Assembly (NCBI GenBank): GCA_023249375.1
Contig: JAHFCT010000012.1
Location: forward strand, 1-64,000
DNA from: Gemmatimonadota bacterium
GTDB lineage: Bacteria > Gemmatimonadota > Gemmatimonadetes > Gemmatimonadales > Gemmatimonadaceae
Length of the DNA: 64,000 bases
Reading direction: 5' to 3'
A program made the translations under genes and the position numbers. This document shows positions 34,021 to 54,581 of this stretch, piece by piece; position 1 is the stretch's first letter; every line of letters begins with the position of its first letter. The notes beneath the pieces were generated by a model that saw only the letters and a list, made by a program, of their open reading frames with translations, did no database searches and was not told where the DNA came from.

Positions 34021-34778
34021 ATCAGCGCGACACGGCGTTTGTACTCGGCAAGCGCGGCATCGAGCCGTTCGCGCGCGGTGGTGTCGCCGGGCACGTTGTG
34101 CGACGGATGGATGTGCAGCGGCACCCCGCGGTCGGCGAGGATCTCGGCGACGGTCGCGATGGTCATCCAGACCGTGGTGACGAACGCCATGGTGCTGAGC
34201 GGGCCGATCTTGTCGAAGTGATTCTTGAGGTCCACCGACGAGTCGCCGACTGGAACACAGGTGTCGATGACGATGTCGGCAAGATCGAAGATCGTCTTGC
34301 CGCAGGAATGGCGCGTGACCTTGCCCTTGGCTTCCGCGGCCGAACCGCAGACGACGACGGTCATTCCCTTCTTCTTCGCTTCGAGCGCCACGTCGATGTT
34401 GACGGCATTGATGCCCGTGTGCGAAAAGATCCACATCGTGTCCTTCGGGTCGAACGAGTATCCCTTCATGATCTCGACGCCGAAGCCCTCGGCGCGTTCG
34501 AGGAAGAGAAACTGGTGGATGCCCATCTCCCCGGTGATGTGCGTGAAGAAGGTGAGCGGCAGTTCGACCATGGGGTGGAAGCCCACGAAGCCGCCGATGC
34601 GCGGATACATCTCTTCCACGGGAATGGTGGCGTGCCCGCAGCCAAAGGTGTGCACCCAGCGGCCGGCCTCGATGGAATCGGCCATCGCGAGCGCGGCGAT
34701 GCGGATATTGTCCTGCTGTGTCCGCTCGATCGCGCTCATGACGGTGCGCGCGTTGTCGAGCCACTGCGTTGACAGCAT
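34017..34778 (-). CDS. SIS-domain protein (UPF0309-like sugar isomerase)
   Basis: 253 aa. One SIS (phosphosugar-binding) domain: GRWVHTFGCGHATIPVEEMY near 40-60 and WIFSHTGINAVNIDVALEAK near 115-135, the fold used in GlmS, MurQ and GmhA. The likely role is isomerisation or lyase action on a sugar phosphate. Together with the convergent ROK kinase and MFS permease it may form a small sugar or amino-sugar catabolic set; substrate unproven. RBS CGGAG lies 8 nt before the ATG. The region 34779-35031 up to the next gene shows no ORF with support. Confidence 0.8.
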   Translation of the reverse strand: MLSTQWLDNARTVMSAIERTQQDNIRIAALAMADSIEAGRWVHTFGCGHATIPVEEMYPRIGGFVGFHPMVELPLTFFTHITGEMGIHQFLFLERAEGFGVEIMKGYSFDPKDTMWIFSHTGINAVNIDVALEAKKKGMTVVVCGSAAEAKGKVTRHSCGKTIFDLADIVIDTCVPVGDSSVDLKNHFDKIGPLSTMAFVTTVWMTIATVAEILADRGVPLHIHPSHNVPGDTTARERLDAALAEYKRRVALI

Positions 34779-35031
34779 GCTGTAATCTCCGGTTGGTCAT
34801 CGGTGCGACGGTACGCCGTGTGCCGGGGGAAACGTCCCGGCGGACGCCGATGTCGTCAAGGGGACGGACGGAGCGCGCCGGGCAAGCCCGCCGCGTCTCG
34901 CTCGACGGACCGATGCTCGTTGGCGCGCACCGGATTGCTGGCGGCTGGGCGACACTGACTCCAAGCTTGAATCGTCGGCGGAACCCCGGCCCGGCCGATC
35001 GTGATCCGTTGCCCCCACAGGACGACAACGC

Positions 35032-35838
35032 GTGCCCGCGGACGAATCCACGGCGGAGCGATTCTCGCTGACGAAATGGTATCTCGACTGCGCTGACGCG
35101 GACGGCCGCGTCGCCATCGGGTACTGGGCGTCGGTGTGCTGGCGCGGGCTCGCGGTGAACTGGCACAGCGTGGCGGTGCACGAGCCTGGTCTCGCACCGC
35201 GCGTGCATTCGAGCGTACGGCAGGTCGCGGCGCCGGCGCAGTCGGGCAGAGAGATCACGTGGCAGTCGCCCGCCCTGCACTGCGCGTTCGTGGTTGACGC
35301 GTGCACTTCGAGCCCACCGCTCCGCCTGCTGGATGGTCCGGACGGGCACGTGGATTGGCAGTGCGTGGCACCCGCCGCGCACACGATGGTGGTGACCGAT
35401 CACTGTGCGCCGATTCGCGGCGTCGGATACGCGGAGTGCATGGCGATCACGATGCTCCCGTGGAAGCTGCCGATCGACGAACTGCGCTGGGGCCGATGGG
35501 CAGCGGGGGACGCGGCGCACTCGGTGGTGTGGATCGACTGGCAGGGCGCGGCGCCGAATCGATGGGTCCTGGTGAACGGCACGCTTTGCGATGCGTCGAG
35601 CGTGAGCGATGACGAGGTCGCCGTCGACGGCGGCGTGCTCACGCTGGCGCAGCCGCGCACGCTGCACAAGCGATTGCTCGGCGAAATCGTTGCCTCGGTG
35701 CCGCCGCTGCCCGCGCTGCTGCCGCCGTCGATGCTCTCGTTGCGAGAGCACAAGTGGTGCAGCGAGGGGACGTGGCGCGCGGGCAGTGGCACACCCGAGA
35801 CCGGATGGGCCATCCACGAAGTGGTGCGCTTCAGATGA
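35032..35838 (+). CDS. Hypothetical protein with AttH/CrtC-like features
   Basis: 268 aa, soluble, no signal peptide. Two parts: an N-terminal FSLTKWYLDCADADGRVAIGY block and a C-terminal block with GYAECMAITMLPWKLPIDEL followed by RWGRW and WVLVNG. This two-lobed Trp/Gly pattern recalls the AttH/CrtC (hydroxyneurosporene synthase-like) lipocalin-type proteins, which bind lipid or isoprenoid ligands; this is a weak match by eye. GTG start at 35032. Its stop overlaps the next gene by ATGA, so the two are likely coupled in function as well. Confidence 0.6.
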   Translation: MPADESTAERFSLTKWYLDCADADGRVAIGYWASVCWRGLAVNWHSVAVHEPGLAPRVHSSVRQVAAPAQSGREITWQSPALHCAFVVDACTSSPPLRLLDGPDGHVDWQCVAPAAHTMVVTDHCAPIRGVGYAECMAITMLPWKLPIDELRWGRWAAGDAAHSVVWIDWQGAAPNRWVLVNGTLCDASSVSDDEVAVDGGVLTLAQPRTLHKRLLGEIVASVPPLPALLPPSMLSLREHKWCSEGTWRAGSGTPETGWAIHEVVRFR

Positions 35839-37775
35839 CACCGGCCAAGATGCGCCGTCGGGGCGCCGCTGGCCGCATCGCGTACGGTTCGCTGTTCGTT
35901 GTCGCGCTCCCTGCCCTGCTCGCGCTCTGGGCGCGCCAGCTCGATCGGCTGGTCAGCTTGCCAGCGCTGGGCTCGCGGAGCGTCGGCGGTGCGGTCGCAT
36001 TGGTTGGGGCTGCCGCGATGGCCGCGGGTACGCTCGCGTTGTGGACGAGAGGTCGCGGCCTGCCGATGAGCGCGTATCCCCCTGAGCGCCTCGTCACGGA
36101 AGGCATCTATCGATATGTGTCGGACCCGCTGTACGTGGGGGCCGTGTTTGTGTGCGCCGGTGTTTCGCTCTTCGCGCATTCCGCTGCCGGACTGTGGATC
36201 GTGACGCCGGTGCTCGCGCTGTGCATCGCCGCGTGGGTGTTCGGCTTTGAACGCGACCTCACGCGACGGCACTTCGGCGCGCTCGCCGAGCCGCTGTTGC
36301 GGCTGCCGTCGGACATCGAAGATCGGCCAACGGCGTGGCATCGCATCTCGTTCTACGTACTCGTCTTCGCTCCGTGGCTTGTCTGCTTCCAGTCGGTCGA
36401 GTTCCTCGGCGTGCCGGCAGGCGCGCTCACCGCCACGTCGGCGCTCGATGCGCGGATACCCGTGATTCCGTGGACGGAAGCGCTGTATTTCTTCGCCTAT
36501 CCCTTTACGATGCTCGCGCCGCTCGCGGCGACGCGGCAGCGCGATCTTCGACGGTTGGCCGTGCGTGCGCTCTGGGCCACCGGGGTGATCATCACGTTCT
36601 ATCTGCTCGTCCCCGTCGTCGCCGAGGCGAAGCCAGTGGCTGGTGACGGCTTTTGGCAGATGATGCTGCGCTGGGAGCGGTGGGGTGACACACCGGCGAC
36701 GGCGTTTCCGTCGTTCCACGTCGTGTGGGCGTGCCTAGCGGCCGAGTTGTACGCCACGACGTGGCCATCACGCCGCTGGCTGGCGTGGGGCGCGGCGGTG
36801 CTGATCTCGGTGAGTTGCCTCACGACGGGAATGCATGCGATGGCCGATCTGCCGGCGGGCGTGGCGGCCTATGTCTTGGTCGCGCGCGGCCGCTCGGTGT
36901 GGTCGTTCATTCGCCGCCAGGCGGAGCGCATCGCCAACTCGTGGTGGGAGCTGACGCTGGGTCCGGTGCGCCTTCAGAGCCACGCGCTGTACATCGGGCT
37001 TTCGACCGTGCTCACGATGCCGGTGGCCGTCTGGCTGAGTGGACGCGAGCTGCGGTGGTGGGTGTTCGGCGTCTCGGTGGCGGCGGGCGTGGGGGCCGCG
37101 GTGTGGGCGCAGGTGATTGAGGGATCGCCGCAGCTGCTGCGCCCGTTCGGTTACTTCGGCGGCATCTTCACCGTGGTTCTCGCGATACCGGTGGCGGCAT
37201 TCGCGGGCGTCGATGCCTGGCGTTTCTTCGCCGCCTACTGCGTGGCCGTCGCGTTTGGGCAAGGACTCGCGCGCCTGCGCTGCCTCGTGAACGGCTGCTG
37301 TCACGGGCGCCAAGCCCCCGAAGCGATCGGCGTGCGCTACACGCACCCGGCCAACCGCGTCACGCGACTGAGCCGTCTCGGCGGCGTGCCCATTCATCCG
37401 ACGCAGATCTACTCGCTCGGGTGGATGATACTCGTGGGATGCATCCTGCTCCGGTTCTGGATGGTCGAAGCACCGCTGCCTTTCATTGCGGGCTTCTACT
37501 TTCTGCTCAGCGGTCTGGGACGATTTGTCGAGGAGCATTTCCGCGGCGAACCGCAGACGGCGACGTTCGGCGGGCTTCGCCTCTACCAGTGGCTGGCACT
37601 GCTGTTCATCGTCGGCGGCGGCGCCCTCTCGGCAATCCCGGGCGCGAGCGCTCCGGCCCCCACGTGGCCCGGCTGGAGCGCGCTGGGCATCGCGGCGCTC
37701 GCCGCGGTCCTCGGCATCGCGATGTTCGGCGTCGACTTCCCCCGCTCCCAACGGCGGTTCTCGAGGCTATCATAG
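35835..37775 (+). CDS. Three-domain membrane protein: ICMT-like methyltransferase, PAP2-like phosphatase, Lgt-like transferase
   Basis: 646 aa, about 15-18 membrane segments. Residues about 1-150 resemble the isoprenylcysteine/phospholipid methyltransferase family (LVTEGIYRYVSDPLYVGAVF, then FERDLTRRHFG). About 150-360 resemble PAP2/AUR1-type lipid phosphatase: FPSFHVVWA and SCLTTGMHAMADLPAG (the PSxH and HxxxD parts; the Arg of the SR motif is a Cys). About 400-600 resemble prolipoprotein diacylglyceryl transferase: RLRCLVNGCCHGRQAPEAIG, VPIHPTQIYSLGW and LSGLGRFVEEHFRGE. I know of no named family with this order. ATG at 35835 makes ATGA with the gene before; the permease follows after 3 bp. 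Confidence 0.75.
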   Translation: MTPAKMRRRGAAGRIAYGSLFVVALPALLALWARQLDRLVSLPALGSRSVGGAVALVGAAAMAAGTLALWTRGRGLPMSAYPPERLVTEGIYRYVSDPLYVGAVFVCAGVSLFAHSAAGLWIVTPVLALCIAAWVFGFERDLTRRHFGALAEPLLRLPSDIEDRPTAWHRISFYVLVFAPWLVCFQSVEFLGVPAGALTATSALDARIPVIPWTEALYFFAYPFTMLAPLAATRQRDLRRLAVRALWATGVIITFYLLVPVVAEAKPVAGDGFWQMMLRWERWGDTPATAFPSFHVVWACLAAELYATTWPSRRWLAWGAAVLISVSCLTTGMHAMADLPAGVAAYVLVARGRSVWSFIRRQAERIANSWWELTLGPVRLQSHALYIGLSTVLTMPVAVWLSGRELRWWVFGVSVAAGVGAAVWAQVIEGSPQLLRPFGYFGGIFTVVLAIPVAAFAGVDAWRFFAAYCVAVAFGQGLARLRCLVNGCCHGRQAPEAIGVRYTHPANRVTRLSRLGGVPIHPTQIYSLGWMILVGCILLRFWMVEAPLPFIAGFYFLLSGLGRFVEEHFRGEPQTATFGGLRLYQWLALLFIVGGGALSAIPGASAPAPTWPGWSALGIAALAAVLGIAMFGVDFPRSQRRFSRLS

Positions 37776-37778
37776 GGC

Positions 37779-39119
37779 ATGCCTCCCGCGGAACGACGGC
37801 CAACCGAGCTGCGCCGTTCGATTGGACTCGTGCGCGCCACGTCGATGGTGGTGGGCATCATCATCGGCGCCTCGATCTTCGTGCAGCCGTCGGCCATCGC
37901 GCATGAGGTGACGAGCATCGCCGGCATCATCGCCGTCTGGTGCGCCGCAGGTTTTCTGACGCTCATCGGCGCGCTGGTGGTGGCGGAGCTCAGCTCGGCG
38001 TGGCCTCAGACGGGCGGCGTCTACGTCTTTCTTCGCGAAGCGTATTCGCCCGTCGTCGGTTTTCTCTGGGGCTGGGCCATGCTCCTCACCATGCACACCG
38101 GCATTCTCGCAGCGATCGCGACGATCTTCGCGACGTATGTGGGCACGTTCGTGCCGCTGTCGAGCACCGGCACGCGCGTGGTGGCCATTGCCGCCGTGCT
38201 GCTGCTCTCCGCCGTGAACTATCGCGGCGTGCGACAGGGAGCGGCGCTGCAGGCGGCACTGGCGTTCGTGAAGGTCGGTGCGATCCTGCTTATCGTCGTG
38301 CTGGCGGTGGCGTACGCCGGGCCGGCGCCCGACGCGCCGTCATCCGTCGCGCCACTCGCCGCGGCGCCGAGTGGCGTGAGCGCTTCCGGGTTCTTTGCCG
38401 CGCTCGTCGCCGGTTTGTTCGCGTACGGCGGATGGCACATGGTGACGTACGCGGCCGAGGAGACGATTGATCCCGTGCGCACGATTCCGCGCGCGCTGTT
38501 GCTCGGCACGGCAATCGTCACGGCGTCGTATGTCGGCGTCAATGCCGCGTACCTGCACGTCCTGCCACTCGCCACGGTGAGCGCATCGCCGCGCGTCGCG
38601 GCCGACTTCGCGAGCGCCACGATGGGCGGCGGCGGCAGCGGGCTCGTCAGCGCGCTCGTCATCTTTTCCACACTCGGCGCGATGAACGGCGTCATTCTCG
38701 CCGGGCCGCGCGTGTATCTCGCGATGGCGCGCGACGGGCTGCTCGTTCCGTGGATCGCCGCCGTGCATCCGGCGTATCGCACGCCGCACCGCGCCATCGC
38801 ACTGCAGGCGGTGTGGGCGGCGGTGCTCGTCGGCACCGGCACGTTTCGACAGCTCTTTACTCGCGTGGTCTACACCGAGTGGATTTTCTTCGGCCTGCTC
38901 GCGTGCGCGCTCTTCGTGCTGCGGCGCCGCGTCGGCTATGCTCCCCCGTACCGGGTCTGGCTCTACCCGCTCTTCCCCGCGCTCTTCGTGCTCGGTACCG
39001 TGGCGATCGTCGTCAACCAAATGGTGCGCGAACCCGTAAGCAGTGCGATTGGCCTGCTGCTCGTCCTGAGCGGACTGCCCGTCTACTACCTGCTCGCACG
39101 CCCCCGCATCCCCCGCTGA
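37779..39119 (+). CDS. APC superfamily amino-acid permease
   Basis: 446 aa, about 12 membrane segments. LRRSIGLVRATSMVVGIIIG with GASIF is the typical segment 1 with the substrate-binding GxG; AAEETI after the sixth segment and the late VLRRRVGYAPPYRVWLYP also fit amino-acid/polyamine/LAT-type transporters. Substrate unknown. It follows the fusion gene by 3 bp and precedes the amidohydrolase by 17 bp, so the four plus-strand genes are probably one transcript. Confidence 0.88.
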   Translation: MPPAERRPTELRRSIGLVRATSMVVGIIIGASIFVQPSAIAHEVTSIAGIIAVWCAAGFLTLIGALVVAELSSAWPQTGGVYVFLREAYSPVVGFLWGWAMLLTMHTGILAAIATIFATYVGTFVPLSSTGTRVVAIAAVLLLSAVNYRGVRQGAALQAALAFVKVGAILLIVVLAVAYAGPAPDAPSSVAPLAAAPSGVSASGFFAALVAGLFAYGGWHMVTYAAEETIDPVRTIPRALLLGTAIVTASYVGVNAAYLHVLPLATVSASPRVAADFASATMGGGGSGLVSALVIFSTLGAMNGVILAGPRVYLAMARDGLLVPWIAAVHPAYRTPHRAIALQAVWAAVLVGTGTFRQLFTRVVYTEWIFFGLLACALFVLRRRVGYAPPYRVWLYPLFPALFVLGTVAIVVNQMVREPVSSAIGLLLVLSGLPVYYLLARPRIPR

Positions 39120-39136
39120 TCCACCGGAGTTCCCTC

Positions 39137-40120
39137 GTGCGCATCGTCGACGTCCACAACCATTTCTATCCGCCCAAGTACATGGAGGCGCTCCGCTCCG
39201 GCGACAGCGCCATCACGATCAAGATTGACGCCGACGGCAACCCTGAAGTGCACTATCCGGGCGACTTCAACACCGCCGTGCTCGGTCACCGCGACATCGC
39301 GTATCGGCAGGGCGTGCTCGAGCAGGAAGGCGTGGACACGCAGATCATCACGCTGACGACGCCCGGCACGCATGTCGAAACGCCGGAGCGCGCCGTGCGG
39401 TTGGCGCGCATGGTGAACGACGAGTTCGCGGAGATCGTCGCGGCGCGGCGGCCGCGCTTCGCCGCGCTCGCCACGCTGCCGCTCAATGATCCCGCCGCAT
39501 CAGTGGTGGAGCTGCGACGCGCCGTCGAGCAGCTCGGCATGCCGGGCGCGATGCTCTTCTCCAACGTCAACGGCGTGGCGCTCGCCGACGAGCGCTACTG
39601 GCCGCTGTACGAGGCGGCCAACGACCTCGGGTGCATCCTGCACATCCATCCCACGAATCCGATCAGCGTGGAGGCGATGCGCGAGTACTGGCTGATGCCG
39701 CTCGTGGGATTCCTGTTCGATACGACGGTGGCGGCCGGACATCTCGTCTTCGCCGGCGTCGGCGAGCGCTTCCCGCGCATCAACTGGGTGCTCAGCCATC
39801 TGGGCGGCGCCATTCCGTATCTCGCCGAGCGGCTGGATCGCGGCTACGAGGCGTTCAAGGAATGCCGCGCGCATATCGTGAAGCCGCCCAGCGAGTACTT
39901 GAAGACCTGGTATTTCGACACGGTGAACTTCGACCCGACGGCGCTCGAACTCGCGGTGAAGTTCGCGGGAGCGAGTCATATCATGGCGGGCAGCGATTAT
40001 CCGCACGCCATCGGCAGCATCCCGTACATGAAGCGCGCGCTGACCGCGATGAATGTATCGGAGAGCGATCGTGCGCTGATCATGGGTGGCAACGCGGCGA
40101 AGCTGTACAAGCTGGGCTAG
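39137..40120 (+). CDS. Amidohydrolase (ACMSD-like, amidohydrolase-2 family)
   Basis: 327 aa TIM-barrel metal hydrolase/decarboxylase. Metal ligands VHNHF (His-x-His) at the N-terminus, a His in HIHPTNPIS, HLGGAIPYLAERLDRG (His about 220) and GSDYPHAIG (Asp about 290). This set is that of aminocarboxymuconate-semialdehyde decarboxylase and relatives; the exact substrate cannot be told. GTG at 39137-39139 is chosen because GGAG lies 8 nt upstream and the protein then begins at the barrel (VRIVDVHNHF). Ends 10 bp from the convergent metzincin gene. Confidence 0.85.
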   Translation: MRIVDVHNHFYPPKYMEALRSGDSAITIKIDADGNPEVHYPGDFNTAVLGHRDIAYRQGVLEQEGVDTQIITLTTPGTHVETPERAVRLARMVNDEFAEIVAARRPRFAALATLPLNDPAASVVELRRAVEQLGMPGAMLFSNVNGVALADERYWPLYEAANDLGCILHIHPTNPISVEAMREYWLMPLVGFLFDTTVAAGHLVFAGVGERFPRINWVLSHLGGAIPYLAERLDRGYEAFKECRAHIVKPPSEYLKTWYFDTVNFDPTALELAVKFAGASHIMAGSDYPHAIGSIPYMKRALTAMNVSESDRALIMGGNAAKLYKLG

Positions 40121-40130
40121 GCCGCGGTCG

Positions 40131-42506
40131 CTACGGCGCCACGAGCGCGCTGCGGCGCGTGCGTACGCCGTCGCTGCATGTGACGACGAGGGTGCTGCCG
40201 GACGAGGCGCCCACGTGCAGCGTGGCGCCGCGTGCGGTGCCGAGCAGCGCACCAGTGCGCGCGTCCTGCACGGCAATGCCTCGCGTCGCCGCGTCGGCGC
40301 ACGATAGCCGCAGGGCGGCCGCGCCATTTTCCCGCGCCGCCAGCGGCGCCACGGCAGCGGACACATTGACGGCCGCGTCGGCGTTCGAGCGCGCCATCAC
40401 CTGCCCTACGCCAGCACCCGTCACGCGAATCATCTGGAGTTCGCGGTCGATGCGATCCGTCAGCGGAATCGTGAACAGGAACGGACGCGCCGTCGAGTGG
40501 TCGAGCCGCGCGGGCTCGAATGCGTACCGGAACAAGAGGTCCCCATTCTCCGCGACGCCCTCGAGCGTGTACGGCCCGGATTCCGGCGAGGATGGCAACG
40601 CGGTGAGCGTCAGCGTGGGCTCAAGCGAGACGACGCCGTCTTCTATGGCGCCGCGCACGGCGAGCACCGGCTGAGCCGCCTGCACCGCCTGCACCGCCTG
40701 CACCGCCTGCACCGCCTGCACCGCCTGCACGGTGCCAGTCTCGTTCGCACGTGCAGACGCCGTGGTGCCGCGGAAGTTCAGCACGGCCTGGTAGGTGTAG
40801 GCGCTGGCCCAGACGGGGAAACAGTAACCCATCACATCGCCGGTGCTCGCCGCCACGGCCGCCGCGCTGGACGACGCGCCCTGCGAACGCTGGTAGACAT
40901 CGTGGCCGATGACTCCGATACTGCCATTTGCACCAGGGAAGCTGGCATCAATCGGCGCCCCCGCGCCGCAGGACGGCGCGTGCTGCCGGCCGAAGTTGTG
41001 CCCGAGTTCGTGCGCCACCAGGTCGCGCGACTGCGTCGGCCGGCCGAACCACCCGACGTTCACGATCGAGGACGTCTTGGTCGCCGCGCCGAACGACGCG
41101 TAGTTGTTCGGGATGTACGCCATTCCGCCGTAGTCGGTGTAGGTGAATCCGCTCGGCGGCGCCACGATGGCCATCCAGTGCGCGCTCACGTTCAACGGAT
41201 CGGCGAGTCGCGCGAGGTCGAGCTCGCTGATGATCTGGCTCCAAAAGGCCGACTGCCCTCCATTCGGCGCCGTGCCGAAGTTCGCGGCCGTGAAGAACGG
41301 CGCGCCAACCGTCACTTGAACGGCGCCCAGTGGATGCACGCTGAGCAGCGTCTGCGTGTAGAGATTGGTGTTCGCCGCCGACACGTTTCCCGTGCTGTTG
41401 GCGTGCGAGGTCAGCACGATCGGCACGAGCCGGAGCTTGAGCGCGTTGGGCGTGACAGCCGCGAGCGCCGCCGGGCCACCGCTCGGATAGCGGTCGTTGG
41501 ACGCGGACGCATCGGCCGCAACGCCGCGGGGATCGCGCACCAGTTCCCACTTGAGTCCCGCGCGAAGCGCCGACGCCGGCACGAAGAACTGCGCGCTTGG
41601 CGCGTCGAAGCCCGGCGCGGTCGCCGGCACACTGGCAATCGCGATGGTATCCGTGCGCACGACGAGGCCGCTTACCGCGTCCGTCAAGCGCAGCAGTAGC
41701 TGCATCGGCGTGCTGACGGTCTGATTCGCCGCGAGAATCACGTTCACGACGGCGCCATTGCCGCCGAGCATCATCGGCAGCGAGCCCGTGGCGTCCTGCA
41801 CCGCCTGCGTCCACTGCGCCGACTGGATGGAGACGTCAACCGACGACAGCACAATCACGGTGATGGCCGCCGTGCCGCTCTTCCCTTCGCACGTGGCGGT
41901 GACCGTCGCAACGCCGGCCGCGGCGGCCGTGATCATCCCGTTGCCGCTGACCGTCACCTTGGCAGCATCGGACGTTGTCCACGTGATCACGCGCCCCGAC
42001 AACGCCGTGCCTGCGGCATCATGCGCGGTCGCCACGAGCTGCTGCGTGGTGCCAATTGCCATCGACGCAGTACCAGGCGTCACGGTGACCGACGCCACGG
42101 GCACCTGGCTGACGGTGACGAGTGCCTGCCCGACCTTGCCGGCCGACGTCGCGAGAATCGTCGATTGTCCCGCGGCGAGACCCGTGACGGTGCCCGAGGG
42201 GTTGATCGAGACGATGAACGACGAGCCCACCGACCAGGCAACGGTACTGAGGCTGTAGGGCGCGCCGTTCTGGTCGACTCCCGCCGCGCTCGCGGTGGTG
42301 GTGGCGCCAACGTTGATAGCCGAGGCCGCCAGCGTGACGCTGATTGACGTCAGTACCGGCGTGGGTTTTGGCGGCGTCGCGGTCGGACTGTCTCCCTTGC
42401 CGCAGGATACGAGCAGCATCACGCACGCGGCACGCAGCACGGCGCGCCGCCGGCGACGGAGCCCGACGCGAGCAACGCAAGAGCGGTCGAGTCGCGACGG
42501 GATCAT
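40131..42506 (-). CDS. Secreted metzincin-type metalloprotease lipoprotein with Big-2 domains
   Basis: 791 aa. Signal with lipobox VMLLVSCGKG (Cys about 35), two Big-2 immunoglobulin-like domains (about 48-205, e.g. VAWSVGSSFIVSINPSGTVT), then a protease domain with the zinc motif HELGHNFGRQHAP and a Met-turn VMGYCF, as in M11/M12B-type metzincins. After it a run of six VQA triplets, then a beta-rich C-terminal part ending near a Cys-containing strand. Likely anchored in the outer membrane or secreted. ATG at 42504-42506; the open frame upstream runs through a tRNA relic and is not used. Confidence 0.8.
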   Translation of the reverse strand: MIPSRLDRSCVARVGLRRRRRAVLRAACVMLLVSCGKGDSPTATPPKPTPVLTSISVTLAASAINVGATTTASAAGVDQNGAPYSLSTVAWSVGSSFIVSINPSGTVTGLAAGQSTILATSAGKVGQALVTVSQVPVASVTVTPGTASMAIGTTQQLVATAHDAAGTALSGRVITWTTSDAAKVTVSGNGMITAAAAGVATVTATCEGKSGTAAITVIVLSSVDVSIQSAQWTQAVQDATGSLPMMLGGNGAVVNVILAANQTVSTPMQLLLRLTDAVSGLVVRTDTIAIASVPATAPGFDAPSAQFFVPASALRAGLKWELVRDPRGVAADASASNDRYPSGGPAALAAVTPNALKLRLVPIVLTSHANSTGNVSAANTNLYTQTLLSVHPLGAVQVTVGAPFFTAANFGTAPNGGQSAFWSQIISELDLARLADPLNVSAHWMAIVAPPSGFTYTDYGGMAYIPNNYASFGAATKTSSIVNVGWFGRPTQSRDLVAHELGHNFGRQHAPSCGAGAPIDASFPGANGSIGVIGHDVYQRSQGASSSAAAVAASTGDVMGYCFPVWASAYTYQAVLNFRGTTASARANETGTVQAVQAVQAVQAVQAVQAAQPVLAVRGAIEDGVVSLEPTLTLTALPSSPESGPYTLEGVAENGDLLFRYAFEPARLDHSTARPFLFTIPLTDRIDRELQMIRVTGAGVGQVMARSNADAAVNVSAAVAPLAARENGAAALRLSCADAATRGIAVQDARTGALLGTARGATLHVGASSGSTLVVTCSDGVRTRRSALVAP
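40677..40730. repeat. 9-bp tandem repeat inside the metzincin gene
   Basis: Six exact copies of CCGCCTGCA (period 9), read on the minus strand as six VQA triplets. It is in frame, so copy-number changes would alter linker length between the protease and the C-terminal domain without frameshift. Confidence 0.9.
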
Positions 42507-42609
42507 GGCGTGTCGTTCACCGGCTGGGGGGCACGGGCCGCGCGGACTTTCGAGGTTCGCCGGCGATCCGTGGGGCTGATTCGTTCGCTCTCTCGACTGC
42601 GCGCTTCCA

Positions 42610-42693
42610 TGCCGGGGCTGGGGATCGAGCCCAAATGGGATTGCCCCAAAGGGATTCAACTCCCTTTCCCCACTCTGAGAACTCCCCAACGCC
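42610..42693 (-). pseudogene. Decayed tRNA-Leu-like relic
   Basis: 84 bp clearly related to the tRNA-Leu at 54343-54427: 3' acceptor CCCCGGC and A73, a T-arm (with CTCGATC in place of TTCGATT), the long variable arm TTTGGGGCAATCCCA and the anticodon stem AGGGA/TCCCT are kept. The 5' acceptor strand no longer pairs, the D-arm is lost, and the anticodon loop seems one base short (GTTGAA). It is unlikely to be functional. The flanking TTCCATGCCGGGG is also shared with the real gene. Confidence 0.65.
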
Positions 42694-42750
42694 CTCTGGC
42701 GGACGCTGCAATTGTCCGCAAGCGTTCACGGAGTTCGCAACAACTGTGCA

Positions 42751-42798
42751 GAATACCGCAACAGACCGCAATTGGGTTCCGCGTACGTTGCGGTATTC
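42751..42798 (-). terminator. 12-bp inverted repeat at the end of the signalling cassette
   Basis: GAATACCGCAAC (42751-42762) and GTTGCGGTATTC (42787-42798) are exact inverted copies with a 24-nt spacer. The right arm overlaps the stop codon of the GGDEF gene (42797-42799). It may end the operon's mRNA. It is AT-richer than its surroundings and lies beside the tRNA relic. Confidence 0.5.
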
Positions 42799-44170
42799 AG
42801 ACGTCGCCCGGCACGCGTCCAAGCAAAGGGATGGACTCCTCGCCCGCGCCGCGCTGCATCATCTCGCCGATAGTCGACAGCAGCAGGTCAACGCCAATTG
42901 GCTTTTGCAGAAAAGCGACCGCCGCGCCAGGAAGTCCGCTCCAACTCACCGGGCCGTTCACGTAGCCCGACATGTAGACGACGCGGACCGACGGGTCGAC
43001 TTGCGTGATCTGGTCGATCATCGTCATGCCGGTCATGTCGGGCATGATGACGTCGGTGAGGATGACCCCCGGCCGCTCCGCTGCGTCTGCCGCGGCAAAG
43101 TGACGCACCACCTCCTTCGGGTCGCCGCACTCCCACACCTCGTAGCCGTCCTCCTCCAGGACCAAACGCAGCGCGCTCCGCATCTCGACCAAATCGTCCA
43201 CGAGGTACACTCGCCCGCGCCGCGGCGCGGCCTCGGGGACGACCGCCGCCGCAAGGGCGTGCTCGGCGACGCCCTGAAGCTCCGGTCCAAACCGCGGCGC
43301 CACACGGACGCAGTCGCGACCGCCGCCTTTGGCTTCATACAGCGCACGATCGGCTGCTCCTAGCAACAGCTCGTATGACCCCATGCCCGGTTCGTGCACC
43401 GCAATGCCCGCGCTGACCGTCTGCACTCCCCAGGGAAACGTCTTCGCGCGCATCTGGGCAAGCACGCGCTCGGCGAACACGACCGCGCCGTCGCTATCAG
43501 CGCCGGCCAGAATCGTGGCGAACTCCTCGCCGCCAAAGCGCGCCGACAGATTGTCCCGCCGCGTGCACGCCTGCAGTACGCCCGCAAACTCGCGGAGCGC
43601 CTCGTCTCCGGCCGAGTGACCATGCGTGTCGTTCACGCGCTTGAACCGGTCGAGGTCGAACATCACCACGGCCAGCGGCTGTCCGCGCTCCGCCGCCGCG
43701 AAGGCGCTCTCGAGTGCCAGGTCCAGATGACGGCGGTTGGCCAGATTCGTCAGCCGATCCATCAGTGCCAGGTTCTCGGCGCTGATCCGCTCGCGGCGGA
43801 GCAGCTCGGAGAGCACGGCAATGCCTATCGACACACCCAGGTAGACGGCCACGATGCCGAGCAAGAGCGACCAGTCCGGCTCGGCAATCTCGAAGAGCAC
43901 GACGCTTAGCTGCGTGGCGGTGATGACAGCCATTCCGCCGGACAAGGCGATGGCCACGCCGCGCAGTCCGCGGTAGTACGAGAGCAGGAAAGCCGGGATG
44001 AGCGCCGAGAGCCACACGAGCATCCCGTAGCTGGTGCTGGTACCCGTTGGAAACTCGAACACCGCGGCAATCGGAACCGCGAACGCCAGCACCGAAATCG
44101 CCAGTGCGCGCGTGGGGATCGGTGGCGGCTTGACCGAGACCACCTGCTGCGCGCCGGCACGCGCCGTCAT
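42797..44170 (-). CDS. Membrane diguanylate cyclase with C-terminal receiver domain
   Basis: 457 aa. Four N-terminal membrane segments (about 15-135), a GGDEF domain (about 155-310) with active motif RFGGEEF and DLDRFKRVNDTHGHSAGDEAL, and a C-terminal receiver (about 325-440): VYLVDDLVEM, phospho-Asp in VILTDVIMPD, FLQKPI. Makes c-di-GMP. The product-inhibition site before GGEEF reads RRDN instead of RxxD, so feedback may be lost. A receiver after the GGDEF, rather than before it, is unusual. ATG at 44168-44170 makes ATGA with the EAL gene. Confidence 0.9.
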   Translation of the reverse strand: MTARAGAQQVVSVKPPPIPTRALAISVLAFAVPIAAVFEFPTGTSTSYGMLVWLSALIPAFLLSYYRGLRGVAIALSGGMAVITATQLSVVLFEIAEPDWSLLLGIVAVYLGVSIGIAVLSELLRRERISAENLALMDRLTNLANRRHLDLALESAFAAAERGQPLAVVMFDLDRFKRVNDTHGHSAGDEALREFAGVLQACTRRDNLSARFGGEEFATILAGADSDGAVVFAERVLAQMRAKTFPWGVQTVSAGIAVHEPGMGSYELLLGAADRALYEAKGGGRDCVRVAPRFGPELQGVAEHALAAAVVPEAAPRRGRVYLVDDLVEMRSALRLVLEEDGYEVWECGDPKEVVRHFAAADAAERPGVILTDVIMPDMTGMTMIDQITQVDPSVRVVYMSGYVNGPVSWSGLPGAAVAFLQKPIGVDLLLSTIGEMMQRGAGEESIPLLGRVPGDV

Positions 44171-45402
44171 CGCAGCGTCCGCGAGTTCCATTGACGAATC
44201 CACTCCGCCAGTCCTGCCTCGGACATCGGCCGTGCCACGTGGTAACCCTGGATGACGTCGCATCCGAGCGCGACGAGCACGTGCCAGTCGGCGCGCTCCT
44301 CAACACCCTCCGCCACGGTCGTCAGCTCTAGGTTGCGCGCCAGCGCCAGGCTGGCCTCGACCACGGAGCGCTGCGTAGCGGAGCGCGAGCACCCGTGCAC
44401 GAACTGGCGGTCGATCTTGATCTCGTTGAATGGAAGCTGGCGGAGCTGCGACAGTCCCGACTGCCCGGTGCCGAAGTCGTCGATGGATAGGTTGAAGCGC
44501 TTGAGCCGCAGCCGACTGGCCACCTGTGCCATGCGGATCACGTCGCGCGCCACCTGCGTCTCGGTCACTTCAAGCGTGATGCACTCGTTGGGCACTGCCG
44601 CCTCGCGCGCGATCTCGGCGATGCGCTCCGGCAGGTCGGCCTCCGCCAGGGCGCTCGCGCTGAGGTTGATCGCCACCCGCAAGTCCCCGCCGGCGCGGCG
44701 CCAGCGTCCGGCACAGGCAATCGCGTGCCGAAGCGCGAACTCGCTCAGCATCCCCGTGAAGTCGGACGACCGCTCGATGAGGGGCACGAAGTTGTTCGGT
44801 AGTATCAGGCCGAGGGTCGGATGCTGCCAGCGCACGAGCGCCTCGACGCCCACGAAGCGCCGTGTCCGGACCTGCACTTTGGGCTGGTACACAAGGTGAA
44901 ACTCGTCGAGACGAAAGGCGTCGCGGACCTCCTGGGACCGCACCGTGACCGGCACCGACTCCGGCTCGGGACGTTCGTCGTTCAGGCGCCCGAGGAGCGT
45001 CTGCATGGTGGCTAGATCGATCGGCTTCTGCACCGCGCCGAGCAGGAGGAGTCCCTGCGCCTTGGCAATCAGGCCGACGCTTTCAATGATGCGGCGGTCC
45101 TCGACGCTCATGACGACGAACGCCGCGTCGATCCCGAGGTCGGCCAGCGCGTGCAGCGTCTCCACGCCGTCTCCGCCAGCCATCTGGAGGTCGCAGAAAA
45201 TGAGGTCGAACCGAACGCCCTGCTCGGTAACGGCGGCCAGCGCCTCTTCCCCGCTTCCCACCGCAACGACTCGCGTCACCCCCAACGCGTTCAACACGCT
45301 GGTGGTGTACTCGCGCACTTCGGCCTGGTCGTCGATGATCAGGACGCGCGGATCGGGCAGGACGGAAGGCGGGGTCACCTGGCCCTGTTCGGGAGATAGC
45401 AT
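44167..45402 (-). CDS. Receiver-EAL protein, probable c-di-GMP phosphodiesterase
   Basis: 411 aa. Receiver (about 18-135) with LIIDDQ, phospho-Asp in LIFCDLQMAGG, VMSVED and AVQKP; EAL domain (about 160-405) with all usual catalytic parts: GVEALVRWQHP, AINLSASAL, TLEVTETQV, SIDDFGTGQSG, IKIDRQF, TVAEGVEE, GYHVARP. It should hydrolyse c-di-GMP when phosphorylation allows. It is the intact sister of the next gene, with which it shares a special SVED...AKxQGL...GAxQKP receiver block. Confidence 0.92.
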   Translation of the reverse strand: MLSPEQGQVTPPSVLPDPRVLIIDDQAEVREYTTSVLNALGVTRVVAVGSGEEALAAVTEQGVRFDLIFCDLQMAGGDGVETLHALADLGIDAAFVVMSVEDRRIIESVGLIAKAQGLLLLGAVQKPIDLATMQTLLGRLNDERPEPESVPVTVRSQEVRDAFRLDEFHLVYQPKVQVRTRRFVGVEALVRWQHPTLGLILPNNFVPLIERSSDFTGMLSEFALRHAIACAGRWRRAGGDLRVAINLSASALAEADLPERIAEIAREAAVPNECITLEVTETQVARDVIRMAQVASRLRLKRFNLSIDDFGTGQSGLSQLRQLPFNEIKIDRQFVHGCSRSATQRSVVEASLALARNLELTTVAEGVEERADWHVLVALGCDVIQGYHVARPMSEAGLAEWIRQWNSRTLR

Positions 45403-45406
45403 CGGC

Positions 45407-46618
45407 TCATCGCATGCTGCTGACCGTCATCATCCAGCGCGTGATCCACATCGCGAAGTCATCCGCACCAACGGGCCGCGCGATGAACGGTCCCTGGGCG
45501 GCGTCGCATCCCAGCTGCCCTAGCAAGTTCCACTCCGGTCGGTTCGCCACCCCCACAGCCACGGTCCGCAGACGGAGGCGACTCGCCAGCGCCATGCTCG
45601 CCTCCACCAGCGCACGCTTTCGCTCATCTTCCGCGCAGCCCGCCACGATGGCGCGATCGAGCTTGAGCTCGCTGAACGGCACCTCGTCGAGGAAGTCCAT
45701 GGCCGCATGTCCCGAGCCGAACTCGCTGATCGCCAGTCGGAATCCCTTGATCCGCAGCCGGGCGGCGATATCGATGAGCGCCACGTGGTGCTCGGGCAGC
45801 CGCTGCGCCGAGAGTTCGATCGTCACGGCCGCCGGCAGCACGTGGTGCTCGATCGCAATGGCCTCGATCTGCTCGGTGAAGTCCACGCGGTCGAAGGCAA
45901 GTGAGGAGAGCGGGATCGAGACCCCGGCCGGGTGATTCCCCCGTTGCCACGCGGCGCATGCCACGATGGCGTCGTGCAGCATCACCGAGGCGAGTCGCTT
46001 GGCGTCCGCCGGAATGCGTTCGAAGTAGTTGCGAAACTCCTCGGACTCGAGTGTTCCCCGCAGCGGATGCGTCCATCCGAGCACCGCCTCCGCACTCTCG
46101 CACTCGCCCGAGCGAATGTTGATTTGCGGGTCGAAGGTCACGGTGAGCTGACTGGCCTCGAAGGCATCACGGATTTCCGCAGGTGCAATGCCCGGCAGTC
46201 CCGGCTGTACGGAGTGAACACCCTCCAGCACGCGCTGCAGCACCGGCTCCAGTTTGTCCGCCGTCAGCGGCTTCTGGATGGCGCCGAGAAATCGCAGCCC
46301 CTGCAGCTTGGCCAGGCTCCCGACGGCGTCGATGACATGCTCGTCCTCCACGCTTACGATGGCCACCGCGCAGCGCGCGCGCTGCCGCGACATCTCGCGA
46401 ATGGTCTCCACGCCATCGAGGTCAGCCATCTTCAGGTCCACCAGCGCGAGGTCGAAGGTCCTGCCCGGCTCATGCATCGCCGCCAGCGCCGCACGGCCGC
46501 TGTTGGCCTCCGTGACCTGCTCGATGCCCATTCCTGCCAGGATGCCGCGTACGAACTGCCGGACGTGCTGCTGATCGTCCACCACCAGGATGCGGAGCGT
46601 CGAGTAGTCGTTTGTCAT
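45407..46618 (-). CDS. Receiver-EAL protein with degenerate catalytic site
   Basis: 403 aa, same architecture as the neighbour. The receiver keeps VVDDQ, the Asp in LALVDLKMADLD and IQKP. The EAL domain has lost key residues: AEAVLGW in place of EALxRW, a Pro where the metal-binding Asn should be (VSIPLSSL), SEFGSG for DDFGTG, and AVGVANR for AEGVE. It probably does not hydrolyse c-di-GMP; it may bind it or act as a partner. A recent-looking paralogue of the gene 4 bp downstream. Confidence 0.88.
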   Translation of the reverse strand: MTNDYSTLRILVVDDQQHVRQFVRGILAGMGIEQVTEANSGRAALAAMHEPGRTFDLALVDLKMADLDGVETIREMSRQRARCAVAIVSVEDEHVIDAVGSLAKLQGLRFLGAIQKPLTADKLEPVLQRVLEGVHSVQPGLPGIAPAEIRDAFEASQLTVTFDPQINIRSGECESAEAVLGWTHPLRGTLESEEFRNYFERIPADAKRLASVMLHDAIVACAAWQRGNHPAGVSIPLSSLAFDRVDFTEQIEAIAIEHHVLPAAVTIELSAQRLPEHHVALIDIAARLRIKGFRLAISEFGSGHAAMDFLDEVPFSELKLDRAIVAGCAEDERKRALVEASMALASRLRLRTVAVGVANRPEWNLLGQLGCDAAQGPFIARPVGADDFAMWITRWMMTVSSMR

Positions 46619-47847
46619 GTGGAGTGGCCCGGAGCTGCAGCGAGCCCCGCCGGCGCGCTCGGCGCGCCGGGTTGGAGTAGGCGGAGCAACGCCGAGGACA
46701 GTTCGGCTATCGCGAACGGCTTCGATAGAAATGCGGTGCTTCCATCCGGCGACGCGTCGACGCGCCCCGAAACCACGAGCAGCCTCGGTGCCGGCCGCTC
46801 GAGCGACAGCAACGCCGCCAGTTGTGCGCTCGACATGTCCCGCAGTGTGCTGTCACTGACCACCACGTGCACGGGCTCGACCCTCTCACGCACCGTGCGC
46901 AGCGCCTCGCCGCCGTCGCTCGCCGTGAGAACCGTACAGCGAAGCTCCTCCAGCATCTCCGTCATGGACTGGCGGACGCCGTCGTGCCCGTCCACCAGCA
47001 GCACGGTCGTCCCCGTCGGCAAGGAGAGCCGCGGCGCCGTGCGCTCGGCCGATGCGCGCGGCGCCGTCGCTCCCGGAAAGTGCAATTCGATGCAAAGCCC
47101 CGTGGATGCGTCGCGACGCACATCCATCCGGCCGCCGAGCGAGCGCATGATCTCGTTCGCCGCCTCCAGCGTAAGACCCTGATCGTCGAGGATCGGACTC
47201 TCGCGCTCGGCAACGACGGCCATCTCCTGCCCACCAGTGGACTCATTCGGTCGGGCCGGCGCATCGGCGCTGGCACCGGGCAGTGCGACCACTCGCAACA
47301 TCACCGGGGCGCCGGCCACGACCTCGTCCGGTCCCGCGATTGCTGAGGCGGCCGGGTCCACACCGTCCGTCACGGTCTCGATCCGCATCACGGCGCCGTC
47401 GGCCAACGTCTCCATCGCATTCGTCACGACGTCCAGCAGCAGCTCGTCGATGAGCCCCGGATCGGCGGTCACCGACGGCAGCGTCTCCTGCAAATGCAAC
47501 TCCACCTTCACTTGCACCGGCAGTACGCGGCGGAGGAGCAGCTCCACCGGGCGGAGCGCCACATTGAGGTCCACGGCGTCGGCGATGCCCTTGTTGCGTC
47601 GACTGTGGATGAGCAGTTGCCGCGAAAGCCACGCCGCGCTCTCCGCGGCGCCTCGAATGGACTGCATGCGCGCGCGCTGCTTGCCGGCGAGCGTGGGGTC
47701 GAGAAGGGCGAGGTCCGCGTAGGCGCTAATAACGGTGAGCAGGTTGTTGAAGTCGTGCGCGACGACGTTTGCCAGTCGGCCGATCGCCGCCAGCTTCTGT
47801 GCGTCGCGACGCTCCTCTTCGAGCCGTGGACTGTCGGGCCGGGTCAT
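46615..47847 (-). CDS. Histidine-kinase-like protein with degenerate ATPase and C-terminal receiver
   Basis: 410 aa, soluble. H-box AHDFNNLLTVISAYADLAL (His31). The ATPase-like region (about 130-290) has an N-box-like VVTNAMETLADG but no clear DxGxG or G2 box where they should be, so kinase activity is doubtful. C-terminal receiver (about 305-400): acid pocket LLVDGHDG has Gly for one Asp; Asp in VVVSDSTL and Lys in FLSKPF are kept. It may be a histidine phosphotransfer or phosphatase module. ATGA overlaps on both sides. Confidence 0.8.
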   Translation of the reverse strand: MTRPDSPRLEEERRDAQKLAAIGRLANVVAHDFNNLLTVISAYADLALLDPTLAGKQRARMQSIRGAAESAAWLSRQLLIHSRRNKGIADAVDLNVALRPVELLLRRVLPVQVKVELHLQETLPSVTADPGLIDELLLDVVTNAMETLADGAVMRIETVTDGVDPAASAIAGPDEVVAGAPVMLRVVALPGASADAPARPNESTGGQEMAVVAERESPILDDQGLTLEAANEIMRSLGGRMDVRRDASTGLCIELHFPGATAPRASAERTAPRLSLPTGTTVLLVDGHDGVRQSMTEMLEELRCTVLTASDGGEALRTVRERVEPVHVVVSDSTLRDMSSAQLAALLSLERPAPRLLVVSGRVDASPDGSTAFLSKPFAIAELSSALLRLLQPGAPSAPAGLAAAPGHST

Positions 47848-48011
47848 GCTTCCACCGTCGCGCGCAGCGCCCGCGCCAAACTGCGAAGGAAATACGGCTT
47901 CGCCAGAACCAGCAGCAGGCTGGAGCCGAGGAAGACGAAGCCGAACGCCGCCGTGGTAGAAACGCGCCACCGCTGCTCCCCGGGCAGGCACATCAGGAGC
48001 GCCGGTTTCAT
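47844..48011 (-). CDS. 55-aa coupled small protein, one hydrophobic segment
   Basis: ATG at 48009-48011 overlaps the stop of the hybrid kinase (ATGA), and its own stop overlaps the next ATG (ATGA again). This exact fit on both sides supports that it is translated. It contains one hydrophobic stretch (AAFGFVFLGSSLLLVLA) and ends LAKPYFLRSLARALRATVEA, which looks like the last strand and helix of a receiver domain (compare [20 protein letters not shown] just upstream). It may be a receiver remnant or a small membrane protein; family unknown. Confidence 0.55.
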   Translation of the reverse strand: MKPALLMCLPGEQRWRVSTTAAFGFVFLGSSLLLVLAKPYFLRSLARALRATVEA

Positions 48012-50713
48012 TTGAGGAGCGCCTCGCGCACGGCGGCCGCGACGCTCTCCAGCTGGTAGGGCTTTTCCAGAAAATGGATGTCGGGCGAAAGCAGGCCGTG
48101 CGTGCCGATCACATCCGCCGTATAGCCGGAAGTGAACAGCACCTTGATCCCTGGTCGCAGCATCGCCACCGCCTCGCTCACCGCCTTGCCGTTCAAGCCC
48201 GGCATCACCACGTCCGTCATCAGGAGGTGAATCGGTCCTTCGTGTCGGCTGGCCAGTTCGATGGCCTCGGCGCCGCCCTTCGCGATGAGCACCGAGTAGC
48301 CCAACTCCTGGAGGAGCAGTTCGCCCACCTCGAGCACCGATGCCTCGTCCTCCACCAGCAGCACGGTCCCATTCCCTCTCTGCAGTGGGGCGATGGGCTC
48401 CTCCGCAGGGACCGGTCTGGCTTCCCGATTGCAGGGCAAGTAGATGGAGAACCGCGTGCCGCGTCCGGGTGCCGTCTCCACGTCGATCCACCCCTTGTTC
48501 TGTTGTACGATGCCGTAAACAGTCGCCAACCCGAGCCCCGTCCCCTTGCCTGTTTCCTTCGTGGTGAAGAACGGCTCGAAGACGTGTTCGCGCGTTTCGG
48601 CATCCATCCCGCTGCCATTGTCGCGCACATCGATGCGCACGTACTCGCCGGCGTGCGGGCCGTGCGGCGTCTCGAATGCGGGTGCCGGTGCGTGGACGTT
48701 TTCGGTCGAAATCGTCAGTGTTCCACCCTGCGGCATGGCGTCTCGCGCATTGACCGCGAGGTTGGCGAGTACCTGGTCCACCTGACCCGGATCCATCAGC
48801 ACCGGCCAGAGTTCCTGTTGCGGCTTCCACTCCAGCAGCACGTCCTCGCCCACGAGCCGCCGAAGCATTTTCAGGAGATTCTCAATCGTCTCATTAAGCG
48901 GAAGCACCCGCGGCATGATCACCTGCTTCCGGGCGAAGGCCAGAAGTTGCGAGGTCAACGCCGTCGAGCGTCGTGCGGCCTCCTCGATCTCCTGCAGGTG
49001 CGAGAGCACGCGGTGGCCGGGCGGCAGCGCCCGTTGCGCCAGCGAAGCGCGTGCCATGATCACGCCCAGCATATTGTTGAAGTCGTGCGCCACGCCGCCG
49101 GCCAGGCGCCCCACCGATTCCATCTTCTGCGCGTGCGCCAGTTGGGCCAGCAGCGAGCTTCGCTCCTCCTCCGCCCGTCGCAGGTCGGTGATGTCCTGCA
49201 CGGCTCCCGACAACTGCAAGAGCACGCCATCGTCGTCCTTCTTCGGCTCACCAGGCGTCGCCAGCAGCGTGCGAACCTCACCGTCTGGTCGAACGACGCG
49301 ATAAGTGAGCACCCGCGGAGTACGCCCCCGCATGGCAGCGGCAAGCTCCTCTTCGAACATCGCCCGGTCGTCGGGATGCAGACGCGTCTGGATGGCCTCG
49401 GCCAGCTCGACCTGCGTCCTCTCAGGATCGATGCCCCACATCTTCTGCATTTCGTTCGACCAGTCAAGGACGCCCCCGCGGCAGTCCCAGCGCCAGTGCC
49501 CCACGTGCGCCAGGCGCTCCGCCTCGCGCAGGTCGCGCTCGCTCTCCTGCAGGGCTTCTTCCCATCGCAGGCGATCGCTGATGTCGCGCTTGACCGCGAC
49601 GTAGTTCACGATCTCGCCCATCTCGTCGCGAACGGGGGAAATGGACGCTTCCTCGGTGAAGAGCGTGCCATCGCGTCGCTTGTTGACGAAGCGGCCGTGC
49701 CACGTCCGTCCGGCGGTGACGGTGTTCCAGAGCTCACGGTAGAACGAAGCGTCCTGCACGCCACTCTTCATGACGCGCGGGTTTTGGCCTATCACCTCGT
49801 CGCGCCGGTACCCCGTCACCGCCTCGAAGGCGGGATTCACGTACTCGATCAGCGCGTCACGATTGGTTACCACCACCACTTCCGCCGTCTGCTCGATGGC
49901 CGCGAGCAGTCGCTCGCGCTCCCGCTGCGCCTGCCAGCGCTCGGTGACGTCCTGTACGGCGCCTTCCATGCCGATGATGTGACCGTCGCCGTCTCTCAGG
50001 GGGTTTCCAATGGCTACGATGCGCACGGGCGACCCATCCGGCCGGACGAGCGTCATCTCCACTTCATACCGGCGCTCGGCCCGCCACGCCTCCGTCGCCG
50101 TCACGCGGAGGCGCTCCGCGTCCGCCGGTGAGTAGTACGATGCCTCTTCCGCCGGGCTGGGTGGGCCGAGCGCTGGATCGCGGCCGTAGATCTCGTACAC
50201 CACGTCCGACCAGAAGAGCGTTTGCGTCGCAAACTCGAACCGCCAGTAGCCGAGGCGCCCCAGCCGTTGCGCCTCGAATAGCCGCCGCTCGCTGTCAACT
50301 CGCGCCTGCTCCTGCGCCACCTTTTCGCGGCGCAGGTGTCGCGCACGCATCGCGCCTTCGACTGCCGAGGCCAGCCGCTTGACGTGCTCCTTGATGACGT
50401 AATCCCAAGCGCCGGCCTTCATGCACGCGACGGCCGTGTCCTCGTTCGTCGATCCGGTCACGATGATGAATGGCACGTCGGGCAGCCGCTGCTGCGCAAT
50501 GGTCAGCGCCTGCATGCCGTCGAAGCGCGGCATCATGTAGTCCGACAGGATCAGCTCGGGCTTGAACGATTCCAGTGCGTCGAGGTACGCCTCGCGGGAG
50601 TCGACTCGCAGAAACGTGCAATCGGCACAGACACGCCGGACTTCGCGTTCGTTGAGCTCCGCGTCGGACGGCAGGTCTTCGACGATCAGCACGCGCATGC
50701 AGTTCACCGTCAT
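48008..50713 (-). CDS. Hybrid sensor histidine kinase (REC-PAS-PAS-PAS-HK-REC)
   Basis: 901 aa, no membrane segments. N-terminal receiver (about 7-120, Asp in [13 protein letters not shown]), three PAS/PAC units (about 135-255, 260-385, 395-520), HisKA with [12 protein letters not shown], HATPase with [19 protein letters not shown] and [15 protein letters not shown], and a C-terminal receiver (about 785-900, Asp in [16 protein letters not shown]). All kinase boxes are intact. The upstream GTG is too close to the AAGGAG site; ATG at 50711-50713 (5 nt spacing) is chosen. Likely receives signal from or passes phosphate within this cassette. Confidence 0.92.
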
Positions 50714-50750
50714 CACGGCTCCTTCGTCGGAGTTGACCGTGGTTTCACAG

Positions 50751-51194
50751 TCACGCCGGTGGCCGGTTCACGAGCAGCCAGTACAGGCCCAGCTTGGAGA
50801 CCGCCTCCGAGAACGCGTCGAAATCCACCGGCTTCACCACATAGCTGTTCGCGCCCAGTTCGTAGGCGGCCTTCACGTCCGGATCCTCGCTGGACGACGT
50901 CACCACCACCACGGGAATCAGGCGCGTCTTCTCGTGACGCCGGATTTCGCGAAGCACGTCGAGGCCGCTCACCTTGGGCAGCTTGAGATCGAGCAGCACG
51001 ACGCGCGGCGCTTCGCCGATGTTCCGCCCCGCGTACGCGCCGGTGCAGAACATGTAGTCGAGGGCGGCGGCACCGTCCTCCACCAGCGTGATCCGGTTGG
51101 CCAGTCGGTCCTTCTTGAGGGCACGCATGGTCAACTCGGCGTCCTGCGGGTTGTCCTCGACGAGCAGGATGTCGATGGCGGAACCGTCGTCCAT
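50751..51194 (-). CDS. Single-domain response regulator (Rcp1-like)
   Basis: 147 aa, receiver only. [20 protein letters not shown], phospho-Asp in [26 protein letters not shown] and [10 protein letters not shown] are the canonical acid pocket, Asp, Ser/Thr and Lys. The type (VEDNPxDxEL, long loop after helix 2) is that of regulators paired with phytochrome-like or PAS kinases such as Cph1/Rcp1. Two bp downstream of the PAS kinase, so it is probably its direct target. Confidence 0.94.
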
Positions 51195-51196
51195 GG

Positions 51197-54004: not shown

Positions 54005-54131
54005 CCATTTGCCTCGCCTGGTCATCAGCCAGGCAGTCCACTCCGCAGGGCACGCGACGCGTCCGTGAACGGAGCGATGTCTAAGAAGTACGTGTGCACG
54101 AGGGGCAATGTTCCAGCGCGTATCTCGTTAC

Positions 54132-54161
54132 ATCATATAATAATCGCGCCGAAAAAGGCAA
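54132..54161 (-). promoter_or_regulatory. Putative promoter of the signalling cassette
   Basis: TTGCCT (-35, 54156-54161) and TATGAT (-10, 54132-54137), 18-bp spacer, in an AT-rich island in the 338-bp gap (54005-54342) between the PAS kinase and tRNA-Leu. The leader would be about 120 nt. Besides this and the tRNA terminator I see nothing in that gap. Confidence 0.5.
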
Positions 54162-54292
54162 ACCAATGTGTGCGGGTTCATTCAGCGTTCATTATCGCGG
54201 CGACGTTCGATTCAAGGAATCGACCTGGACCGCGGGACGGCACGATTTGCGCCACACGTTCGTCGACGGTGAGCGGCGGCGCACGGAGTCAG

Positions 54293-54326
54293 AAAAACCG
54301 AGGCCGCCCAGTGCGCCGGGCGGCCT
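54293..54326 (-). terminator. Rho-independent terminator after tRNA-Leu
   Basis: AGGCCGCCC (54301-54309) pairs with GGGCGGCCT (54318-54326), and on the minus strand the stem is followed by CGGTTTTT. This is the most classical terminator in the window, 17 bp past the tRNA 3' end. Confidence 0.85.
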
Positions 54327-54342
54327 GCTCGTTTTCCCTCCA

Positions 54343-54427
54343 TGCCGGGGCCGGGAATCGAACCCGGATGGGGTTGCCCCCAAGGGATTTTAAGTCCCTC
54401 GCGTCTAGCCAGTTTCGCCACCCCGGC
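54343..54427 (-). tRNA. tRNA-Leu (anticodon UAA)
   Basis: 85 nt class II tRNA. Acceptor GCCGGGG/CCCCGGC with A73, D-arm GGCGAAACTGGCTAGACGC, anticodon arm AGGGA-CTTAAAA-TCCCT (anticodon TAA), long variable arm TGGGGGCAACCCCA, T-arm CCGGGTTCGATTCCCGG. CCA is not encoded. A decayed relative lies at 42610-42693. Confidence 0.95.
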
Positions 54428-54555: not shown

Positions 54556-54581
54556 CGGCGTCTCTCATTCATTCCATCCAG

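Follow-up and report, generated by a model that had tools for sequence, protein, structure and literature searches.

The locus and its features

The window, by which we mean the whole 64,000-nucleotide stretch that was analysed (positions 1–64000 of contig C29 of genome G000), contains two tRNA genes called by ARAGORN, tRNA-Leu(UAA) and tRNA-Gly, both on the minus strand. A decayed partial copy of the tRNA-Leu, hereafter the relic, sits 11.7 kb downstream of the intact gene and on the same strand, an orientation that the initial annotation of this DNA had recorded correctly. The interval bracketed by the two copies (42666–54342) is almost wholly taken up by a signalling cassette (42797–54025). 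Beyond the relic lie further strain-specific genes and then the genus backbone (Table 1).

Table 1. Features of the tRNA-Leu locus, in window coordinates.
Feature	Position	Strand	Basis or remark
Genus backbone: ROK kinase, MFS transporter, SIS isomerase	31904–34778		Named by eye from sequence
Further strain-specific genes past the relic: metzincin, amidohydrolase, amino-acid permease, one more	34779–42609		Absent from congener loci
Relic: tRNA-Leu(UAA) 3' fragment, tRNA positions 29–85, attR-like	42610–42665	−	Own-genome blastn, alignment and shuffles
Perfect 7-bp inverted repeat with 6-base loop, from the anticodon arm	42648–42667	−	Folding
Segment assigned to the relic's 5' half, without homology to the tRNA	42666–42693	−	Chance-level score
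Seven-gene c-di-GMP/histidine-kinase signalling cassette	42797–54025	−	Pfam
HDLRHTF motif	54241–54261	+	Sole HDLRHT in six frames of the window
Terminator-like hairpin directly past the intact tRNA-Leu	54302–54325	−	Resembles flank of displaced G135 fragment
Intact tRNA-Leu(UAA), putative attL side	54343–54427	−	ARAGORN
tRNA-Gly(GCC), conserved upstream neighbour	54581–54654	−	ARAGORN and congener loci

By Pfam, the cassette encodes a GGDEF-Rec protein, two Rec-EAL proteins, a HisKA-Rec protein, a PAS kinase with Rec, a lone Rec and a PAS kinase, and no mobility gene was detected among the seven genes. Foreign codon use, for which the initial annotation had proposed a check, was rejected: both codon use and GC3 of the cassette fell within the genome's range, as approximated by 108 reference genes that a simple ORF rule called in some 200 kb of this genome. 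In order of transcription, the final five genes, from the Rec-bearing PAS kinase to the GGDEF-Rec gene, are colinear at a locus of G377 (L104), with identities of 49–73%. In the flanks of that operon we recognised no integrase among the ORFs by eye and found no tRNA-Leu; the locus has one tRNA gene, without a second copy of that gene. Rec-EAL and GGDEF-Rec genes also co-occur in further genomes of the family.

Two of the strain-specific genes past the relic were characterised. Positions 40131–42506 encode a Reprolysin-like metzincin with Big_2 domains and a run of VQA repeats (VQAVQAVQAVQA). The amidohydrolase (39182–40120) was found in two copies in G000 and in none of its ten congeners among the 11 genomes of the genus; the second copy (G000:C96:2705–3634, L240) is 71% identical.

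The tRNA-Leu fragment and its flanks

The relic corresponds to two-thirds of the tRNA, between the anticodon stem and the 3' terminus, and is identical to the intact tRNA-Leu(UAA) at 47 of 56 aligned bases, with substitutions scattered along its length. When used as a blastn query against its own 3.8 Mb genome, it matched itself and the intact tRNA-Leu (84% over about 60 bases, E 1.1e-10) and nothing else. Its local alignment score against the 3' part of the tRNA was 62, compared with 25 for the best unrelated place in the window and with a mean of 15 and a maximum of 29 among 1000 shuffled relics. The initial annotation had described a full-length copy. Decay was confirmed, but the 5' half was not: the segment assigned to it scored 11 locally against the tRNA 5' half (shuffle mean 11.7), with 662 of 1000 shuffles as good, and in global alignment 793 of 1000 shuffles did as well. 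Neither ARAGORN on the window nor an Rfam scan reported a tRNA at the relic. A CRISPR repeat was rejected as well, the one Rfam match of that kind reaching 16.5 bits and so falling below the cut-off of 38.

A 3' flank shared by the two copies (TTCCATGCCGGGG) had also been proposed. Most of this string is the acceptor end of the tRNA itself; past the end of the gene only TGGA is common to both copies, after which the flanks diverge. The 3' flank of the relic matched none of the congener flanks. The inverted repeat from the anticodon arm is a possible integrase core site.

The relic resembles the tRNA-Leu of G004 (50/56) and of G007 (49/56) more closely than that of its own genome, and both sides of one T-stem pair are common to the three. 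Simple likelihoods favoured an origin from a G004/G007-type allele by 5 to 11 log units, and the allele of G125, from another genus, fits the relic as well as that of G007. The 3' half of the intact gene is nearly identical in G377. By these comparisons of sequence two distinct alleles are involved, as expected if one half came with an element; either may be the native one. An origin of the intact 3' half outside the genus was considered and dropped, because G377, close to the genus by synteny, carries nearly the same allele.

A preserved integrase within the bracket was not found; the initial annotation had proposed a search for integrase remnants. A PF00589 profile search of the G000 genome gave two matches, neither of them on the contig of the window. 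At most, the spacer beside the intact tRNA-Leu carries one HDLRHTF motif, which we take to be box II of tyrosine recombinases. The motif lies 81 bases past the tRNA-Leu and runs towards it, as do the integrases of G002 and G135. It was noticed post hoc, after looking at the sequence, and in 20,000 shuffles of the spacer the strict motif arose in 5 and a loose form in 84. All other copies in the retrieved DNA were from the same genomic place. The frame that carries it had no Pfam match, no convincing relative in 178 family genomes and no match in a phage collection (best E 4). The motif is possibly the last trace of a tyrosine integrase directed towards the tRNA. A DNA match of the spacer to G365, traced to L242, was not within an integrase and was discarded.

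The same tRNA-Leu in related genomes

On the upstream side, galK, a sugar-processing gene and the tRNA-Gly were conserved in the congener loci examined. On the other side, the distance from tRNA-Leu to the backbone was about 90 bases in G004, 2.9 kb in G001 and 5.0 kb in G003, and reached 6.9 kb in G377, 13.4 kb in G002 and 19.6 kb in G000. The SIS/MFS/ROK block is missing from G007, where the next backbone genes are found instead. Nothing in the 34.8–54.3 kb part of the window, cassette included, matched in the congener loci examined. The congeners do not carry the cassette here. The tRNA of G004 adjoins the backbone, but the sequence directly beyond the relic differs from that backbone. The relic could not be upheld as the limit of the whole strain-specific region, because such DNA continues to 34.8 kb. 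Instead it splits a larger accessory region into 11.7 kb on the tRNA side and 7.8 kb beyond the relic.

We searched 118 genomes of the family for the tRNA-Leu and obtained matches in 111; the fragment counts, taken among the matches listed, are lower bounds. Fragments of the 3' part, cut at the anticodon arm, were present in at least five further genomes of the 118: G002, G135, G026 (two fragments), G068 and G076. Those of G002, G135 and G026 lay on the same contig and strand as a whole tRNA-Leu and downstream of it, at 6.8 kb in G002, 17.6 kb in G135, and 10.6 and 15.0 kb in G026. The relatives' fragments start exactly at CTTAAAATCCC in four of six cases and at GACTTAAAATCCC in two of six. 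Two further candidates (G114:C8 and G141:C8) were dropped because the contig ends inside a whole gene. A PF00589 search of 16 genomes placed an integrase directly beside the tRNA-Leu, inside the bracket, in G002 and G135, and Pfam agreed; the G026 bracket gave no PF00589 match. The G002 element encodes, with its integrase, a weak Rep_1 match and a CAP12/Pycsar-type TIR domain, and the G135 element an integrase and a DnaB/AAA_25 protein. The conclusion that this tRNA-Leu is an integration hot spot, reused within this Gemmatimonadota family, is well supported.

Three related loci deserve separate mention. The tRNA-Leu-to-fragment element at 4472–11559 of L033 (G002:C36) carries the integrase, the CAP12/Pycsar-type TIR protein, a DUF4145 protein and a sub-cut-off Rep_1 match. 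The flanks directly 3' of tRNA-Leu in L071 (G097) and L056 (G002) are similar (CTGTTGCAG...GAGTTACG) in genomes of different genera, a resemblance hinting that the G097 flank belongs to an element related to that in G002. In L081 (G026:C34), successive tRNA-Leu 3' fragments at contig positions 139600 and 143999 have similar 3' flanks, and the pair suggests tandem or nested insertions.

Origin of the fragment and comparison with known systems

We consider it probable that the relic is a decayed attR-like scar, left by an old integration at the recurrent tRNA-Leu site. An element with a tyrosine integrase would have inserted into tRNA-Leu(UAA) by crossing over within the anticodon loop. The incoming DNA would have restored the 3' half, so that the tRNA stayed whole, and the old 3' end would have been shifted to the far side of the insert to become the relic. 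The event would be old, the integrase having since been lost and the displaced end having decayed to about 84% identity. This origin is favoured because the fragment comprises only the 3' part, starts in the anticodon arm and follows the whole gene on the same strand at a distance of 11.7 kb, and because the same break point recurs in the five relatives, two of them with integrases. It is also favoured by the tRNA of G004 adjoining the backbone, with a tRNA-to-backbone distance of 0.09 to 19.6 kb across the genus; by the relic being nearer to the G004 and G007 alleles than to the intact gene, as expected of different origins of the 3' halves; and by the single HDLRHTF motif, whose place and direction are those expected.

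Several observations count against it: an integrase gene is missing, codon use in the cassette is ordinary, 7.8 kb of strain-specific DNA follows the relic, the 3' flank of the relic has no congener match, and the 3' half in G377 implies that the intact allele is not foreign. In addition, the terminator-like hairpin has remained beside the intact tRNA, whereas its best match in 179 family genomes (E 8e-5) directly follows the displaced fragment of G135. Should the hairpin be the native terminator, it and the intact gene never parted here, and an older or more complex event would have to account for the relic; should the element have carried the hairpin, the simple integration model holds. Because of this result, we left our confidence in the att origin at probable and set that in the cassette as cargo lower.

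The similarity itself might be attributed to chance or to a generic tRNA motif. ARAGORN and Rfam are indeed silent at the relic, but the gap between a score of 62 and the 25 of the best unrelated place, none of 1000 shuffles above 29 and the genome-wide E value of 1.1e-10 refute this idea, to which we attach practically no weight. It is improbable, too, that the relic arose as a tandem duplicate of the tRNA, which was later separated by an insertion and has decayed. Scattered substitutions and the missing integrase would suit a duplicate; the 5' half, however, is wholly absent, so that similarity does not extend over the whole gene, the break in the anticodon arm is that of the integrase-adjacent fragments in relatives, and the relic is closer to other alleles than to the intact gene.

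A much stronger competitor, to which we give nearly even chances, holds that the relic stems from an earlier, different integration, and that the operon arrived later by recombination or relocation, after most of the element had been lost, so that the bracketing is an outcome of history and the tRNA copies are not the ends of the cassette itself. It overlaps by design with the att origin that we prefer, since an att scar is part of both and the point of difference is the cassette's status as cargo. Seven genes without a mobility gene, their normal codon use, the different location of the operon in G377, where no integrase was recognised next to it, and accessory DNA on either side of the relic all speak for a separate arrival. 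Against it, a bracketed interval is most simply read as the insert, and the cassette fills this one almost completely.

The initial annotation had likened the two copies to attL and attR around the cassette. Its geometry stands, as does the parallel with a hot spot that has integrases and the same break point in relatives; that the cassette was cargo, of the same element or of a later one at that spot, we infer as plausible. We go no further because of the lack of an integrase, the ordinary codons, the extra 7.8 kb of accessory DNA, the terminator at the intact tRNA and the presence of a related operon elsewhere in a close relative. A more specific version is rather doubtful, namely that the c-di-GMP/phosphorelay operon was the sole cargo of a tRNA-Leu integrative element, became fixed after integrase loss and moves between loci in this group, as its other location in G377 hints. 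As cargo, the cassette would be a case of integration spreading an entire second-messenger signalling operon; otherwise the relic is an ordinary scar. In a bacterial family that has received little study, the analysis points to one tRNA-Leu gene where mobile DNA has landed repeatedly, and the locus is a concrete place to seek intact elements.

The elements of G002 and G135 share with the G000 interval the tRNA-Leu, the break point and the orientation. They bear integrases, together with Rep_1/TIR or DnaB/AAA_25 proteins, whereas the G000 interval holds signalling genes only. In the account of Islander (PMC4383910), tRNA-gene islands are defined by a whole tRNA and a displaced 3' fragment, span 2–200 kb and require an integrase; anticodon-centred sites are common among them (2083 of 3919 islands). 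By that account the G000 locus is similar in having a whole tRNA and a same-orientation 3' fragment on one replicon, 11.7 kb apart and anticodon-centred, but unlike those islands its bracket has no integrase gene and its fragment is decayed. With the Islander geometry and no integrase, the locus is island-like and not a certified island. Fragments of tRNA genes can be left by the integration of mobile elements, as described in PMC9897764. Unlike the fragments described there, the relic is too decayed for a tRNA call by ARAGORN; like them, it is a partial tRNA that integration would explain, and scars of this type, displaced 3' ends of tRNA genes, are well known.
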